Of a DNA stretch of 32,416 nt, positions 1 to 19,574 are shown piece by piece (within the stretch, counting starts at the first letter, position 1; each line of letters opens with the position of its first letter). The stretch spans positions 1 through 32,416 of the forward strand of contig PMBI01000066.1 in NCBI GenBank assembly GCA_003153775.1. Reading direction: 5' to 3'. The position numbers and the translations under genes are program-made. The notes under the pieces were generated by a model. It worked only from the letters and a program-made list of their open reading frames with translations, had not been told where the DNA came from and did no database searches. Origin of the DNA: Syntrophaceae bacterium. Lineage in GTDB: Bacteria; Desulfobacterota; Syntrophia; Syntrophales; UBA2185.

Positions 1-274
1 TTCTGAGGGTATCAATGATATTGCGGGTTCCGATAACAGTCAAGGGACGATCCTTCTGCAGATAACAAATATTATCTGCCAGAAACATGATGTCTCTCAC
101 ATGATCAAGGTGAGCATGGGTGACGAGGACATAATCGATATTAACTTGTTCCTCAATAGTCAATAAAGATGTAATAGCTCCGGCATCGACAAGGATCTTA
201 CCGTCCAAAAGGAAGCTCGTTGTATTGCATCCGGGCGTCTGTGATCCATGGCAACCCAGTACTCTGATCTGCAT
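1..274 (-). CDS. Metallo-beta-lactamase-fold hydrolase, possibly class II cyclic-nucleotide phosphodiesterase-like (partial, 5' part only)
   Basis: The first 91 codons are present and the gene runs off the left edge. The product starts MQIRVLGCHGS and carries the metal-binding signature HAHLDHVRD at residues 53-60 (H53, H55, D57, H58), which is the HxHxDH motif of the metallo-beta-lactamase fold. The early GCHGSQTPGCNT segment resembles the N-terminus of MBL-fold phosphodiesterases and RNase Z-like proteins, in which the first strand is followed by a glycine-rich turn. I chose the ATG at 272-274 because AGGA lies about 10 bases upstream and the protein begins directly with the first beta strand. 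There is no signal peptide, so a cytoplasmic enzyme is expected. The substrate cannot be told from this fragment; a class II cAMP phosphodiesterase is one guess. It lies beyond the ribosomal terminator and is not part of that operon. Confidence 0.8.
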   Translation of the reverse strand, partial: MQIRVLGCHGSQTPGCNTTSFLLDGKILVDAGAITSLLTIEEQVNIDYVLVTHAHLDHVRDIMFLADNICYLQKDRPLTVIGTRNIIDTLR

Positions 275-677
275 CTTTTTTCATCCTATGAGAGGAGTTA
301 CTAATGCTCTGGGCCCATGTCCTCCCTGGTCAGGAAGGTATTCATGCCGCGATACGGCCTCAGAACAGGCTTTAACGGCAAGGATCGGTCATAAACTCTC
401 ATTGTCGGAAGCCGGCGGAACGCTAACATACCTTTCCTGTTCAGGCAACAACTTTATAGAACGGTTGTACAACTTGCAGAGAGGGTGCAGTGGTGGATAA
501 AAGACCAGGAATCTTTACCGTAGCCCTGCAAGGCGAGGGTGCAATGTAAGATAAATTCTTTCTTACCGGCCAGGCGCTTTAATTATTACCGATGATGGAA
601 GCAAATTGAACCCGAATCCTTCTTAACAAAAGGGAAAGCAGAAGTTACAAACCCCGGCTTGTTAAATCAACAGATTC
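275..677. other. 403-base intergenic stretch without a convincing gene
   Basis: Between the orphan EF-Tu-like gene and the MBL-fold gene I see no recognisable protein or RNA gene on either strand. On the minus strand there is a 42-codon frame from 429 to 301 that starts MLAFRRLPTMR and ends REDMGPEH, with AGGAAAGG just before its ATG. It is rich in Arg and Pro, matches no family I know, and ends 27 bases before the MBL gene. It could be a small leader peptide or chance. The sequence GTTGTACAAC near 464-473 is a short palindrome. I found no clear terminator after the EF-Tu-like gene; TTAACAA and TTGTTAA near 620-677 can pair only across a 29-base loop. Confidence 0.5.
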
Positions 678-935
678 CTATGGGACAACTTTAAAAACTT
701 CATCACCGGGGCGGACACGATCGGAGACTTTGAGACCAATATAGTCACCCGCCGCAGCCTTCTCAACCTTTTGGTTTTCAATCTCCATCGATTCAAGTGT
801 GTTTGTTATGTCCGTAGTGTGACCTATTATTTTGATCGTATCGCCTACTTTTATCTCGCCATTTGTCAGTTTTATCGCCGCAACGCACGGCTTCGCAAAA
901 AATTTTACAACTTCGCCTATCTTTTCTTCCGCCAT
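678..935 (-). CDS. Free-standing EF-Tu domain-2-like beta-barrel protein
   Basis: This 85-residue protein (start MAEEKIGEVVKFF, end DEVFKVVP) has the layout of the second, beta-barrel domain of translational GTPases: a first strand, the LTNGEIKVGDTIKI turn that corresponds to the G-x-I-x-x-G-D segment, then GHTTDITNTLESMEIEN, and a closing AAAGDYIGLKVSDRVRPGDEV. It has no G domain, so it is not a GTPase. Small proteins of this kind are annotated as translation elongation factor-like in several anaerobic bacteria; their role is not known to me. The start at 933-935 is chosen because GGAGG lies 7 bases upstream; an in-frame start at 962 lacks this. It follows the ribosomal terminator by about 130 bases and so probably has its own promoter. 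Confidence 0.8.
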   Translation of the reverse strand: MAEEKIGEVVKFFAKPCVAAIKLTNGEIKVGDTIKIIGHTTDITNTLESMEIENQKVEKAAAGDYIGLKVSDRVRPGDEVFKVVP

Positions 936-1066
936 AACAAATCCTCCTTCTCCATTGCCCAAATAAAAATCACAATGTGACTCTGTAAAGAACCTTTGAT
1001 GAGTTGAGACTATTGAGAAAGTTATAACTTGCTATGAAGTATATTTTTTCTGACAAAAAAACAAGT
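936..1066 (-). promoter_or_regulatory. Probable promoter region of the EF-Tu-domain-2-like gene
   Basis: The A+T-rich stretch lies between the rplQ terminator and the next gene, so a promoter is expected here. On the minus strand TATACT (1043-1038) could be a -10 box, but the matching -35 (TTGTTT, 1064-1059) is only 15 bases away. Two short dyads are visible: AAGTTATAACTT at 1019-1030, a perfect 12-base palindrome, and TCACAATGTGA at 971-981. Either could be an operator, but no known regulator can be named. Confidence 0.3.
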
Positions 1067-1105
1067 GAAAAAAAGAAAAGCAGGGTCGGCGAAAAACCCT
1101 GCTTT
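1067..1105 (-). terminator. Rho-independent terminator after rplQ
   Basis: On the minus strand a perfect 10-base stem (AAAGCAGGGT pairing with ACCCTGCTTT, positions 1105-1096 and 1086-1077) closes a 9-base loop and is followed by TC and seven T residues. It begins 35 bases after the rplQ stop. It is the only clear intrinsic terminator I found in the direction of transcription of the 31-kb block, so it marks the end of the operon cluster. Confidence 0.92.
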
Positions 1106-1139
1106 GCTGTAAACGTAAGAAATCGCGCGAAGTGCCGTG

Positions 1140-1538
1140 CTACTTTTGTGAAACAACCTTCTTCTTTGTTTGATCCGGACCGATATCCCGGATAAACTCA
1201 ATTATAGACACGGGGGCATTATCACCTGCGCGATTACCCATCTTCACTATCCTCGTATAACCGCCCGCACAGTCACGATACCGCAACGAAAGTTCATCAA
1301 AAAGTTTCCCCACAACTTCCCTGTCCCTTACGTAGGAAAGGGCCTGTCGTCTTGCATGAAGATCGCCTCTCTTCCCGAGGGTGATCATTTTTTCGGCAAC
1401 TTTTCTCAATTCTTTAGCTTTAGCATCTGTCGTCGTTATCTTCTCATATTTCAAAAGAGACGTTACCATGTTTCTCAACATAGCTTCCCTATGACTCTTC
1501 GTTCTGCCCAGACTTTTTCCTGAATTCCCGTGACGCAT
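1140..1538 (-). CDS. rplQ: 50S ribosomal protein L17
   Basis: The 132-residue product starts [20 protein letters not shown] and contains the family core [14 protein letters not shown] and [19 protein letters not shown]17 binds 23S rRNA domains near the exit side of the large subunit. Length fits the usual 120-135 residues. The ATG has GGGAG about 9 bases upstream. It is the last gene of the cluster, 36 bases after rpoA and just before the intrinsic terminator, its normal place at the end of the alpha operon. Confidence 0.98.
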
Positions 1539-1574
1539 CTAACTATCTCCCTTCTCCGCTAAGCATAAAACTCT

Positions 1575-2594
1575 TCATTCTTTAGCACCGAAGTCACCAA
1601 TGTCTCTCCTCTCCTCCTTATTCCAGGGAGGCAAATCGAGTTTCATACCAAAGCTGAGTCCCATCTCTGCAAGAATTTCCTTTATCTCATTCAGAGACTT
1701 CCTGCCGAAATTCTTGGTCTTTAACATCTCCGCTTCCGTTTTCTGAACAAGCTCTCCTATAAGATTAATGCCCGCATTTTTCAAGCAGTTCGCCGATCTT
1801 ACGGAAAGTTCGAGATCGTCAACATGCCTGAGCAGGTTTTCATTGGCGCTCTCCTTTTCCTCGACTACTTCCTGCTGTTCTTCCTCATCCACATCATCAA
1901 AGTTTATGAATATATCCAGTTGTCCCTTTAATATCTTTGCCGCAAAGGCAAGGGCATCCTCCGGAAGGACGCTGCCATCGGTCCATACTTCCATTACAAG
2001 GCGATCATAATCGGCAATCTGTCCCACCCTTGCATGGGCAATCGTATAATTCACTTTCTTAATAGGCGAAAAAGCTGCATCAACATTTATAGTCCCTTCA
2101 GATTGATCTGAGGCCCTGTCCCTGCGGGCCGGCACATACCCTTTCCCCGTTTTCACAACGAGCTCAGCCTTAAACTTGTTACGTCCGGAGAGTGTTGCAA
2201 TATGGTGCTCGGGATTGAGAATTTCAACCGTTCCGTCTGTAATAATATCCCCGGCAGTTACGGCACCTTCTTCTGAGGCATCGATATGAACGACTCTCGG
2301 ACCGTCCTGATTAAGCTTTAATCGAACGCCTTTGAGGTTCAGTATAATATCTGTTACATCTTCTTTGACTCCTGGAATTGTTGAATATTCATGAAGGACT
2401 CCGTCAACCTTCATTGAGACAATAGCCGCTCCCTGAATAGACGACAGCAATACCCTTCTGAGGGCATTTCCGAGAGTAATGCCAAAACCCCGCTCTAAAG
2501 GCTGACAGGTAAATTCGCCATAAAAGCGTGTATGCGTGCTCTCGTCAATTTCAATTCGCTTCGGTCGTATTAAAGTGCGCCAGCTCTTTTGCAT
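1575..2594 (-). CDS. rpoA: DNA-directed RNA polymerase alpha subunit
   Basis: The 339-residue product has both alpha domains. The N-terminal assembly domain (about 1-235) includes [18 protein letters not shown] near residues 36-53, the dimerisation and beta/beta'-contact region. An acidic linker ([16 protein letters not shown]) leads to the C-terminal domain (about 255-325), with [16 protein letters not shown] and [16 protein letters not shown], which holds the arginine used for UP-element DNA and activator contact and the helix-hairpin-helix. Length fits the bacterial family (about 330-350). AAGGAA precedes the ATG. Its position between rpsD and rplQ is the standard alpha-operon order. Confidence 0.99.
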
Positions 2595-2641
2595 TTTTTA
2601 GTTCCTTACCTTTGGGGTATGTTTGTAAGTCTATGACAATT

Positions 2642-3268
2642 TTACTTTGAATAAAGTTCAACAACTAATTGTTCCTGAACGGGCATAACCAATTCTTCGC
2701 GGGAGGGCAGAGTTTTTACCAGGCCCCTGAAATTATCCTTATCCAGTTCCAGCCATTGTGGTATACCCCGCCTGGCAACTATTTCCATCGCCTCAACTAT
2801 TCTTTCCACCTTCTTGCTTTTCTCTCTTACCCGAATCTCGCTGCCTACCTTAACCAAGTAGGATGGGATATTTATCGGTTTCCCGTCTATTAAGAAGTGC
2901 TTATGTCTCACAAGCTGCCTCGCCTCATTTCTCGAATTGGCAAAGCCTATTCGGAAAACCATATTATCGAGACGCCGTTCCAGGAAAAGTAAAAGATTTG
3001 TTCCTGTTATCCCCTTCTGTTTGTCAGCCTTTTCAAAATAACTCCTGAATTGCCTTTCTAACAGGCCGTACATCCTCTTGAGTTTCTGCTTTTCTCTCAA
3101 TTGCACGCCATAATCGGAGTGCTTCCTGCGAAGCTGACCATGATCTCCCGGAGCATAACCCCTTCTCTCAAAGGCACATTTATCACCGTAACACCTGTCC
3201 CCTTTGAGAAAAAGTTTCAGGCCCTCTCTTTTGCATAACCGACACACGGATTCTTTATATCTTGCCAA
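2642..3268 (-). CDS. rpsD: 30S ribosomal protein S4, zinc-binding form
   Basis: The 208-residue product begins [16 protein letters not shown]. Four cysteines at 9, 12, 26 and 31 form the zinc site of the C+ type of S4, which is missing in the E. coli type. The S4 RNA-binding domain follows at about 95-160 ([21 protein letters not shown]). S4 is a primary 16S rRNA binder that nucleates 30S assembly and in many bacteria represses the alpha operon. The start codon is TTG at 3266-3268, supported by GGGGAGG 7-8 bases upstream. The gene lies between rpsK and rpoA. Confidence 0.98.
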
Positions 3269-16243: not shown

Positions 16244-17437
16244 TTACTCGATTATCTTACTGACTACGCCGGCGCCTACAGTTCGACCGCCTTCCCTGAT
16301 AGCGAACCTGAGCTGTTCTTCCATGGCAATGGGGGTGATTAAATCTACTTCAACTTCGATGTTGTCACCAGGCATCACCATCTCGACACCTTCGGGCAGC
16401 GTACAGATTCCTGTAACATCCGTGGTTCTGAAATAGAACTGGGGACGATAGCCGGGAAAGAAGGGCGTATGCCTCCCGCCTTCCTCTTTGGTCAGAACAT
16501 AGACTGCCGCTTTAAATTTCGTATGCGGTGTTATTGATCCCGGTTTTGCCACAACCTGGCCTCTTTCAACCTCTTCTCGTTTGGTGCCTCTCAAGAGAAC
16601 GCCGATGTCATCACCCGCCCTGCCCTCATCAAGGGTCTTGCGAAACATCTCAACGCCCGTACAGACCGTCTTAAACGTGGGTCTGAAACCGACTATTTCC
16701 ACTTCATCTCCCGTTCTGATGATACCTCTTTCCGCCCTGCCTGTAACAACTGTCCCCCGGCCCGATATGGAGAACACATCACCAATGGGCATGAGGAAAG
16801 GCTTATCCAGATCGCGCGTCGGCTCCGGAATATATTTATCGACGGCATCCATTAACTCCCAGATAGACTTGGCATCAGGCGAGTCCGGATCATCAGCCTC
16901 CAGTGCCTTCAAGGCTGACCCTCTGATTATGGGAACTTCATCGCCGGGGAATTCATACTGCGTCAAGAGCTCTCTCAATTCAAGTTCTACGAGATCCAAA
17001 ATCTCCGGGTCATCTACAAGGTCGATCTTGTTCAAATAGACAACGACATAGGGAACCCGAACCTGTCTTGCAAGGAGGATGTGCTCTCTTGTCTGAGGCA
17101 TGGGGCCATCCGAAGCAGCCACCACGAGGATCGTGCCGTCCATGTGAGCGGCACCTGATATCATGTTCTTGATATAATCCGCGTGGCCAGGGCAATCTAC
17201 GTGGGCGTAATGTCTCTTCGCCGTCTCATATTCCACGTGTGCGACGTTAATGGTAACTCCCCTTTCTTTTTCCTCTGGCGCATTGTCTATGGAATCAAAG
17301 GGTCTGAATTCGGCCAATCCTTTTGTCTGCAAGTGTTTTGTAATTGCCGCCGTCAGGGTAGTCTTACCATGATCTACGTGCCCAATGGTGCCAATATTCA
17401 CATGCGGTTTCGTCCTCTCAAATTTCTTCTTAGCCAT
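16244..17437 (-). CDS. tuf: Translation elongation factor Tu
   Basis: The 397-residue GTPase delivers aminoacyl-tRNA to the ribosome. G1 is GHVDHGKT at residues 19-26; the switch region is EERERG-like ([17 protein letters not shown]); G3 is DCPGH near 81-85; G4 is NKID near 136-139; G5 is GSAL. The three domains are complete, ending [11 protein letters not shown]. The ATG at 17435-17437 has the full AAGGAGGT sequence 7 bases upstream; the in-frame start at 17455 would place that site inside the gene. The gene is followed by rpsJ after 26 bases. A second tuf copy, if present, is outside this window. Confidence 0.99.
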
Positions 17438-17486
17438 ATCCATTACCTCCTTCAACTTAAAATGGTTCGTTTATTCACTATGTTTT

Positions 17487-19574
17487 TCATGCTTCATCGA
17501 CTGCCTTTAGTCTGTCAATGACCAGTTTCGCCTGAGTTTCTGATACTGCATGGTAATTGAGAAAACGCATGGTAAAAGTTGCTCTTCCCTGAGTTTTTGA
17601 TCTAAGGTCAGTAGCATATCCGAACATTTCCGCCAAAGGAACCTCGGCATTTATTGCCTCTAAAGAAGGCCTTGACTCGATGCTCACGATCTTTCCCCGT
17701 CTCGAAGTGAGATTCCCGATAACGTCACCCATATATTCTTTGGGAACTATGACTTCCACAGACATCATCGGCTCCATCAAGACGGGGTGAGCTCTTCTTG
17801 CTCCACTCTTGAATGCTATGGAGGCCGCTATCTTAAATGCCATCTCGGAAGAATCCACATCGTGAAAGGAGCCATCCACGGCACTGACAATAACATCTAC
17901 CACGGGGAAGCCCGCCAGAACACCTTCCTGTGTAGCCTCGGAAACGCCCCTTGCCACTGCAGGAATATACTCGCCGGGAATAACCCCGCCGACAATCTTA
18001 TTCCTGAATTCAAATCCCCGGCCTGGTTCATTTGGTTCAATCTCAAGCCATACGTGGCCATACTGTCCTCTGCCGCCGGACTGTTTAACAAACTTGCCTT
18101 CAGACCTGATTCTCTTTCTGATAGTCTCCTTGTAAGCTACCTGCGGACTACCGATGTTGGCGCCTAATCCAAATTCTCTTGATAGCCGGTCGACGATAAT
18201 TTCTAAGTGCAGCTCCCCCATCCCCGAGATCAAGGTTTGACCCGTATCTTTGTCGACCTTCACCTTGAAGGAAGGATCTTCACGGGAGATCTTTCTGAGA
18301 GCCACATCTAGTTTTTCCTCATCCGCCTTCGTTTTTGGCTCTATGGCTATGGCAATAACGGGATCGGGAAATTCCAGGGTCTCCAATACAAGAGGGTGTG
18401 CCGTATCACAAAGGGTATCGCCGGTAGTTGTCAGGTTAAGACCCACGGCGGCAGCTATGTCGCCAGTGCGCACTTCCTTAATCTCCTCCCTCTTATTGGC
18501 ATGCATCTTTAGCAAGCGGCCAATGCGTTCCTTTTTCCCTTTGGACACATTATATACATAGGAACCGGCAGAGAGCACGCCTGAATATACCCTGAAATAG
18601 GTCAACTGGCCGACGTAGGGATCAGTCACAATCTTAAATGCCAACGCTGAGAAAGGTTCGTCATCGCCCGGTGTTCTTTCGATCTTTTCCCCCTTACTGC
18701 CCGTGCCGACCACCGGGGGCATATCCAGCGGCGAAGGAAGGTAATCGATAATTGCATCCAAGAGAGGCTGAACACCTTTATTCTTGAAGGCGGAGCCGCA
18801 CAGCACCGGCGTCGCTTTTAACGACAGCGTGGCCTTCCTCAAGGCGCTTATAATTTCATCTTGTGAAAGAGCTTCTTCATTGAGATATTTTCTCATCATG
18901 CTCTCATCGTGATCGGAGAGAAACTCGATGAGCTTCTCTCGTTCTCGACGAGAGGCATCAAGAAGATCGGGCGGAATCTCATTTACGCTGAATTTAGCCC
19001 CCAGGGAATATTCATCGTAGATGATCGCCTTCATACGTATAAGATCGATTATTCCCCGGAAAGATTCCTCCTTGCCAATGGGCATCTGAACGGGTATCGG
19101 ATGTGCCCCGAGTCTGTCGCGAATCGCGGCAACAACCTTCTCAAAATCAGCCCCCACCCTATCCATCTTATTGACAAAGATAATTCGCGGGACGCGATAC
19201 TTATCAGCTTGACCCCAAACTACCTCAGACTGGGGTTCCACGCCACCCACTGCGCAGAAAAGTGCGACAGCACCGTCCAAGATTCTCAAAGATCTTTCCA
19301 CTTCTATAGTGAAGTCAACGTGGCCGGGCGTATCAATGAGGTTCATGCGGTGGTCGCTCCACGTGCATGTAGTAGCCGCAGCCGTGATCGTTATACCCCG
19401 CTCCTGCTCTTGCTCCATCCAATCCATGGTGGCCGTTCCTTCATCGACCTCACCCATTTTGTAGGAGCCGTGCGTATAATAAAGGATGCGCTCGGTTGTT
19501 GTAGTCTTGCCGGCATCAATGTGCGCCATAATGCCGATATTGCGAAGACTTTGTAAAGGAACAATGCGTGCCAA
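17487..19574 (-). CDS. fusA: Translation elongation factor G
   Basis: The 695-residue translocase GTPase starts [21 protein letters not shown]1 is AHIDAGKT at residues 17-24, G2 lies in [15 protein letters not shown]3 is DTPGH and G4 is NKMD. Domain II, domain III ([15 protein letters not shown]), domain IV with [16 protein letters not shown], and domain V ending near [15 protein letters not shown] are all present. The start is TTG at 19572-19574; the codon just before it is an in-frame stop and the next in-frame ATG would remove part of the G domain, so TTG is essentially forced. It lies between rpsG and tuf. Confidence 0.99.

Follow-up and report, generated by a model that had tools for sequence, protein, structure and literature searches.

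We found that an 85-residue protein encoded just beyond a ribosomal gene cluster of an anaerobic Syntrophaceae bacterium is a single beta barrel of the translation-factor domain 2 superfamily, and that its nearest relative is the C-terminal barrel of some U32-family proteins, not domain 2 of EF-Tu. Our preferred but tentative reading, which we hold at less than even confidence, is that the protein binds tRNA, or aminoacyl-tRNA, at the 3' acceptor end.

The small gene and its surroundings

In the window (the whole stretch of DNA that was analysed, 32,416 nt), the small open reading frame (protein P0002, about 9.2 kDa, pI 5.4) runs on the (-) strand from an ATG at 935-933 to a stop codon that ends at 678. 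These are exactly the coordinates given for an 85-residue frame in an earlier note on this DNA, which had left the strand unstated. The plus-strand frame over 678-935 is also stop-free, and we rejected it as a shadow frame. The features of this region are:

678..935, (-) strand: stand-alone beta-barrel protein, 85 aa (open reading frame including stop; profile, fold and selection)
943..949, (-) strand: Shine-Dalgarno sequence AAGGAGG, 7 nt ahead of the ATG (read from sequence)
1038..1043, (-) strand: putative -10 box TATACT of the small gene's candidate promoter (conservation in aligned loci)
1077..1105, (-) strand: intrinsic terminator past rplQ (stem of 11 bp and T run)
1140..1538, (-) strand: rplQ (bL17), the cluster's final gene (named by sequence recognition)
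2..274, (-) strand: start of the next gene, metallo-beta-lactamase (MBL) fold, truncated by the window edge

Upstream of the small gene, the order is terminator, rplQ, rpoA and the remaining ribosomal cluster, with EF-Tu (16244-17455) and EF-G (17487-19574), both of which have a GTP_EFTU_D2 domain, further up in the same cluster. The earlier note was thus right that the gene follows the terminator (1105-1077, (-) strand) of a cluster that encodes both factors, and the AAGGAGG 7 nt from the ATG bears out its strong ribosome site. We take the labels of rplQ, rpoA, rpsD, folC, NadD, PHP and the host translation factors from sequence recognition. The open reading frame tool called TTG starts at window positions 3268, 17455 and 19574, which belong to rpsD, EF-Tu (which has an internal ATG) and EF-G.

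When we aligned eight loci, AAGGAGG was also present in L002-L006 and was not intact in L007 and L009. The TATACT box is kept in L001-L004, L006 and L009, and a hairpin resembling the rplQ terminator is present in L002-L004, L006 and L009; both elements are kept in four same-genus loci and in L006 and L009, and not in L005 and L007. Promoter consensus scans of the window did not report the box, and for that reason the small gene's own promoter is one that we infer. A full-length relative of the MBL gene (L003:2007-2771) scores above the Pfam cut-offs of PDEase_II and Lactamase_B_2 and far below the cut-off of the RNase Z models. An RNA element was rejected, as Rfam gave no match at E<=0.1 in window positions 1-2600.

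A single barrel of the translation-factor domain 2 superfamily

The small protein scores 33.1 bits with Pfam GTP_EFTU_D2 (PF03144; cut-off 30.3), and its matches to EF-G_D2, GTP_EFTU_D4 and Peptidase_U32_C fall below the respective Pfam cut-offs (16.0 bits against 28.2 for Peptidase_U32_C, PF16325). At E<=0.1, GTP_EFTU_D2 is matched by 37/37 members of a diverse alignment and Peptidase_U32_C by 12/37. The GTPase domain that EF-Tu, EF-1A and SelB possess is absent here; the Pfam matches of the 85-residue frame are barrel models and one chance-level match. The AlphaFold2 model (pLDDT 83.9, pTM 0.66) has seven strands and zero helices, and the predicted structure is an all-beta barrel.

Among solved structures, this model best matches a U32 C-terminal domain from Geobacillus (4he5; Foldseek E 9.4e-6), which VIA-align superposes with Z 15.0 and an rmsd of 1.0 Å over 79 aligned residues, so that the barrel is common to both over nearly its full length. 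The remaining Z values were 14.3 for 4he6 (also a U32 C-terminal domain), 12.9 for IF2, 12.3 for eEF1A, 12.2 for SelB, 11.9 for Pbp11 and 11.6 for EF-Tu with tRNA (1ttt). The profile search and structure comparison that the earlier note had proposed therefore confirm its barrel fold, since GTP_EFTU_D2 is above cut-off and the model matches EF-Tu, EF-1A, SelB and IF2 at Z of about 11.5-13. Its description of the protein as an orphan EF-Tu domain 2 holds for the superfamily but not for the nearest relative: domain 2 of EF-Tu, EF-1A and SelB is less similar to the small protein, in both structure and sequence, than the U32 domain is.

Free-standing barrels of similar size have been solved from archaea. 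Pyrococcus abyssi Pbp11 (7anu, NF041207, named a tRNA-binding protein) has the same barrel, and P. furiosus PF0907 (4pgo) and another P. furiosus hypothetical protein (1xe1) are similar-sized Foldseek matches. Membership of the Pbp11 family was rejected: the small protein scores 16 bits with NF041207 against a cut-off of 100, and 0/99 sampled phylum genomes pass that cut-off. The CDD entries for single-domain relatives of EF-Tu domain II, and the NCBI entries named 'translation elongation factor-like protein', are probably this family, and to our knowledge they assign it no function. In titles and the openings of abstracts, we found no study of the stand-alone family or of Pbp11 binding tRNA. 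The single-domain EF-Tu-II-like kind is already known; what seems worth recording is its closer kinship with one group of U32 C-termini and its independence of U32 enzymes.

The barrel is akin to one subgroup of U32 C-termini and occurs without a U32 enzyme

To compare the family with its relatives, we used a profile of its 121 distinct sequences. U32-length C-termini in six loci (L134, L135, L149-L152) score 41-64 bits and are the best sequence match outside the family, whereas the host EF-Tu scores 19.7 bits. A 258-residue frame (L165) lies above EF-Tu at 23.0 bits, and L164 scores 18.2 bits. L134 and L135 are U32 proteins by Pfam (250 and 231 bits) and were excluded from the stand-alone set; L149 and L150 are annotated as U32, and L151 and L152 are U32 by reading of the sequence. 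The C-terminal barrel of L134 and L135 has no Peptidase_U32_C match at E<=0.001, yet it matches the stand-alone profile. Five further U32 proteins of relatives (L143-L146 and L148) score at most 4.9 bits, and the kinship is therefore with one U32 subgroup.

TrhP, a U32 protein, takes part in the formation of ho5U34 in tRNA and has the C-terminal domain PF16325 (PMC6599085). Because the small protein is below the PF16325 cut-off and the five U32 proteins above do not exceed 4.9 bits, TrhP is linked to the stand-alone family by fold and not by close kinship, and its connection with tRNA bears on the family through the shared fold only.

U32 enzymes of the TrhP, RlhA and UbiU types have a catalytic domain, whereas the small protein is free-standing, and a profile search found no such domain (PF01136) in the host genome. 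The host assembly is 99% complete, which makes an overlooked U32 gene possible but unlikely; in this host the small protein therefore works without a U32 domain. Counting the host, PF01136 was not found in 55/60 nearest genomes, and of the five that match, four are above the cut-off. A detached half of a U32 enzyme is disfavoured on these grounds. In the phylum sample, U32 proteins occur in 126/198 genomes and are rarer alongside the stand-alone gene (22/54 carriers vs 104/144 non-carriers; Fisher p 6e-5, uncorrected for kinship), and 9 of the 22 carriers with U32 have it by weak matches only (E 1e-6 to 1e-15). The stand-alone gene and U32 do not go together.

The small gene is conserved and under purifying selection

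The host genome (3.13 Mb in 98 contigs) has one match to the small protein at E<=0.001, and relatives have full-length matches with identities of 62-98%. At the same threshold, the stand-alone gene is present in 54/60 nearest genomes, host counted; 55 genomes match, and G034 was dropped because its sole match is an unannotated 399-aa frame that is EF-Tu-like by length and alignment. The gene is in pieces in 3 of the 54 carriers (G016, G035 and G057). The distribution counts cover Desulfobacterota, where the gene is found at E<=1e-6 in 54/198 genomes, host counted, and not found in 144; here too 55 match, and G189 was dropped, since a U32 frame accounts for its sole match. A contig scan with two peptide patterns from close relatives gave 131 matches, and among the best 80, which were retained, the nearest named records are Syntrophaceae metagenome bins.

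In five of seven pairs with relatives, dN/dS is 0.08-0.15; dS is saturated in the other two. The small frame is under strong purifying selection, and together with the 54/60 nearest genomes this confirms that it is conserved in relatives. Measured against one reference locus, median identity is 73.6% for the small protein (n=56), 71.2% for rplQ (n=56) and 72.3% for rpoA (n=52); the MBL gene reaches 65.5% (n=11) and folC 56.5% (n=36). For rpsD it is 77.9% (n=48), with a different reference locus. The identities of the small protein and rplQ are correlated (rho 0.51 over 1540 non-independent pairs from 56 loci), as shared descent would give. L133, which has a masked stretch, was left out of alignment A2 and of the 56-locus survey, and its masked positions count as gaps within the 121 sequences. 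Three genomes occur twice among our loci (L136 and L104, L178 and L106, L179 and L105).

A phage or plasmid gene was rejected. Although 19 stretches fit the pattern in a scan of viral contigs, 0 were confirmed as relatives, and of the six records found by tblastn (four plasmid and two phage), the four inspected are annotated as U32 (two) or are unannotated but U32-like by reading (two). The U32-like gene of L152 is in a record labelled Bacteriophage sp. (MT835672.1, unverified) that may be a bacterial contig.

The neighbours of the small gene differ between lineages

To identify what lies next to the small gene in relatives, we surveyed 76 nearest loci (L021-L096), chosen by rank and many labelled only Deltaproteobacteria. 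Of these, 71 extend 1.2 kb or more upstream, and 66 of the 71 have a same-strand rplQ match no more than 3 kb upstream, 63 of them no more than 400 nt away. Downstream, 67 loci reach 3 kb or more; 52 of them have folC there and 16 the MBL gene. A wider survey covered 56 loci, mostly outside the order, with 19 labelled queries; there, two loci of the order and family f40 are the only places where rplQ is nearby. The position directly after the ribosomal cluster, which the earlier note described, is thus borne out here and in the host's own lineage but not in the rest of the phylum sample, f40 excepted. With neighbourhoods this varied, the position beside the ribosomal genes belongs to a single branch.

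In f40, the order is rplQ, EcfA1, small gene, EcfA2 in 4/4 gene-bearing genomes; the family's fifth genome, G150, gave no match to the stand-alone gene. The adjacency to rplQ in the host lineage was plausibly left after loss of the ECF genes from an f40-like order. In f34 (L110, L120, L167 and L168), we found SelA, small gene and EcfA2 with short gaps in 4/4 gene-bearing genomes, and the SelA of L120 scores 586 against an NCBIfam cut-off of 268. The single f83 genome has the small gene between EcfA1 and EcfA2. Two ECF-type ATPase genes flank the small gene in L108, L126 and L169-L171, and an EcfA2-like gene starts about 7-32 nt downstream, measured from match edges, in nine loci of f34, f40 and f83. 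In f45 and f74, a CCA-NTase/PcnB-like gene comes after the small gene in 5/5 gene-bearing genomes, with a PhoU-like gene between them in four. Neither the CCA-NTase-like protein nor the ECF ATPases reach the equivalog cut-off of the model that fits them best.

Other families have different neighbours. In f28, f31 and f92 (12 genomes), a GT9 glycosyltransferase gene is upstream and a DUF763 gene (8 genomes), or else a radical SAM or PHP-like gene, is downstream; the protein labelled PHP has no Pfam match at E<=0.001. The DUF763 gene is on the same strand in the f28 and f31 loci L111, L114, L121, L123, L129, L172, L175 and L176, and in L097 a DUF763 gene is on the opposite strand. In f59, an aminotransferase gene is downstream in 3/4 loci and a NadD-like gene upstream in 2/4, and the two f36 loci have an AAA ATPase and a further gene. 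Few or no labelled genes were found in sixteen loci of other families and three short contigs of f15 and f59 type. These lineage-specific associations, with rplQ, SelA, a CCA-NTase-like gene and ECF-type ATPases, also seem worth recording.

These surveys bear on two other explanations. The protein could be a ribosome- or initiation-associated factor whose barrel would bind rRNA or a ribosomal protein like IF2 and tune translation or assembly, which we consider unlikely though credible. The IF2 barrel comes next in fold after the U32 domain, in 63 of the 71 nearest loci that could be counted the gene stands at the end of the ribosomal cluster, and its rate of evolution is about as low as that of rplQ and rpoA. 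However, a terminator separates it from rplQ, an ECF-type ATPase gene intervenes in f40, where alone outside the host lineage rplQ is near, the protein is acidic, and the gene was not found in most genomes of the phylum sample. A ribosomal protein is disfavoured because the family is acidic (median pI 5.3 and net charge -3 for its 121 sequences) and its location differs by lineage.

Alternatively, the protein might be a protein-protein adaptor whose barrel attaches to an enzyme or a transporter; it could, for example, serve a U32-like enzyme as a C-terminal domain in trans, or regulate an ECF transporter. We regard this as about as unlikely as the ribosome-associated role. The U32 C-terminus is the closest domain and the EcfA2-like gene is tightly spaced in the nine loci, but PF01136 is unmatched in the host and most of its nearest genomes, genomes with U32 carry the stand-alone gene less often, and EcfA has no match in the 76 nearest loci (with a reach of about 4 kb on each side).

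A candidate pocket for the tRNA acceptor end

For our preferred reading, binding of the tRNA acceptor end, we compared the family with the EF-Tu pocket. By alignment, Val237 of Thermus thermophilus EF-Tu corresponds to V18 and Glu271 to E51, and in EF-Tu these two residues hold A76, the last nucleotide of aminoacyl-tRNA. All 121 sequences have V at position 18, and at position 51 all 121 have either E (85) or Q (36); at the latter, EF-Tu has E, the host SelB-like protein (labelled by sequence) Q and the U32 protein L135 E. In L149 and L151, both U32 C-domains from Bacteroidota, R stands in place of Glu271, and this residue is therefore not a mark of a fold-wide function. Unlike Val237 and Glu271, Arg274 and Leu289 have different partners here, mostly N and mostly K, respectively, among the 121 sequences. 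When we compared six pocket positions with random sets, enrichment of conservation was not significant (P 0.09). Basic residues are kept at K15 (120/121), K69 (115/121) and R75 (119/121), and, judged from sequence, these form a possible phosphate-binding patch.

The conserved polar residues T40, T41, S49, K69, R75 and D78 need not make an RNA site, and the protein might instead bind a small molecule or metal, or have some other role outside RNA binding, with a stable fold merely reused. Its acidity and the lack of significant conservation in the RNA pocket are in keeping with this explanation, which we judge quite unlikely. A functionless remnant is unlikely, given the strong purifying selection and the wide retention of the gene.

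Binding of the tRNA acceptor end remains the reading that we prefer, and several lines of evidence point to it: the superfamily, with fold matches that include SelB and EF-Tu with tRNA; the barrel in common with C-termini of U32 proteins, the family to which TrhP belongs; E or Q at the A76-glutamate position and V at the Val237 position throughout the family, as far as aligned sequences can tell; acceptor-end neighbours in separate lineages (SelA in f34, the CCA-NTase/PcnB-like gene in f45 and f74); the ribosomal cluster that adjoins the gene in the host lineage; and, by analogy, the single-barrel Pbp11 that NCBIfam names as tRNA-binding. Against it stand the many neighbours without any connection to tRNA (ECF-type ATPases, GT9, DUF763 and the aminotransferase), the acidic protein and the pocket set that is not significantly conserved. 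Because of this pocket statistic, the N and K partners, the acidity and a TrhP link through fold only, we keep the reading tentative.

On this reading, the small gene is probably transcribed from its own promoter, and the barrel would act as a free-standing RNA-binding module that holds the tRNA 3' acceptor end on the face used by EF-Tu, EF-1A and SelB. Such a hold might protect those ends or hand them over. That the family is a putative GTPase-free 'acceptor-end clamp', passing charged or uncharged tRNA ends to lineage-specific partners (ribosome, SelA, CCA-adding enzyme), is a more specific idea that we find doubtful. Binding of tRNA ends would make the protein a minimal stand-alone form of the aminoacyl-tRNA module of translation factors, kept in many uncultured anaerobes of the phylum and in a single copy in the host, and would suggest that in some U32 proteins, too, the C-terminal barrel binds RNA. 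If it is wrong, the protein is an ordinary uncharacterised small domain protein.

Among its other translation factors, the host genome (G000) encodes three EF-G-like proteins of 692-695 aa, labelled by sequence (L153, L155 and L159), and that of L159 has an unusual P-loop, GHGATGKT.
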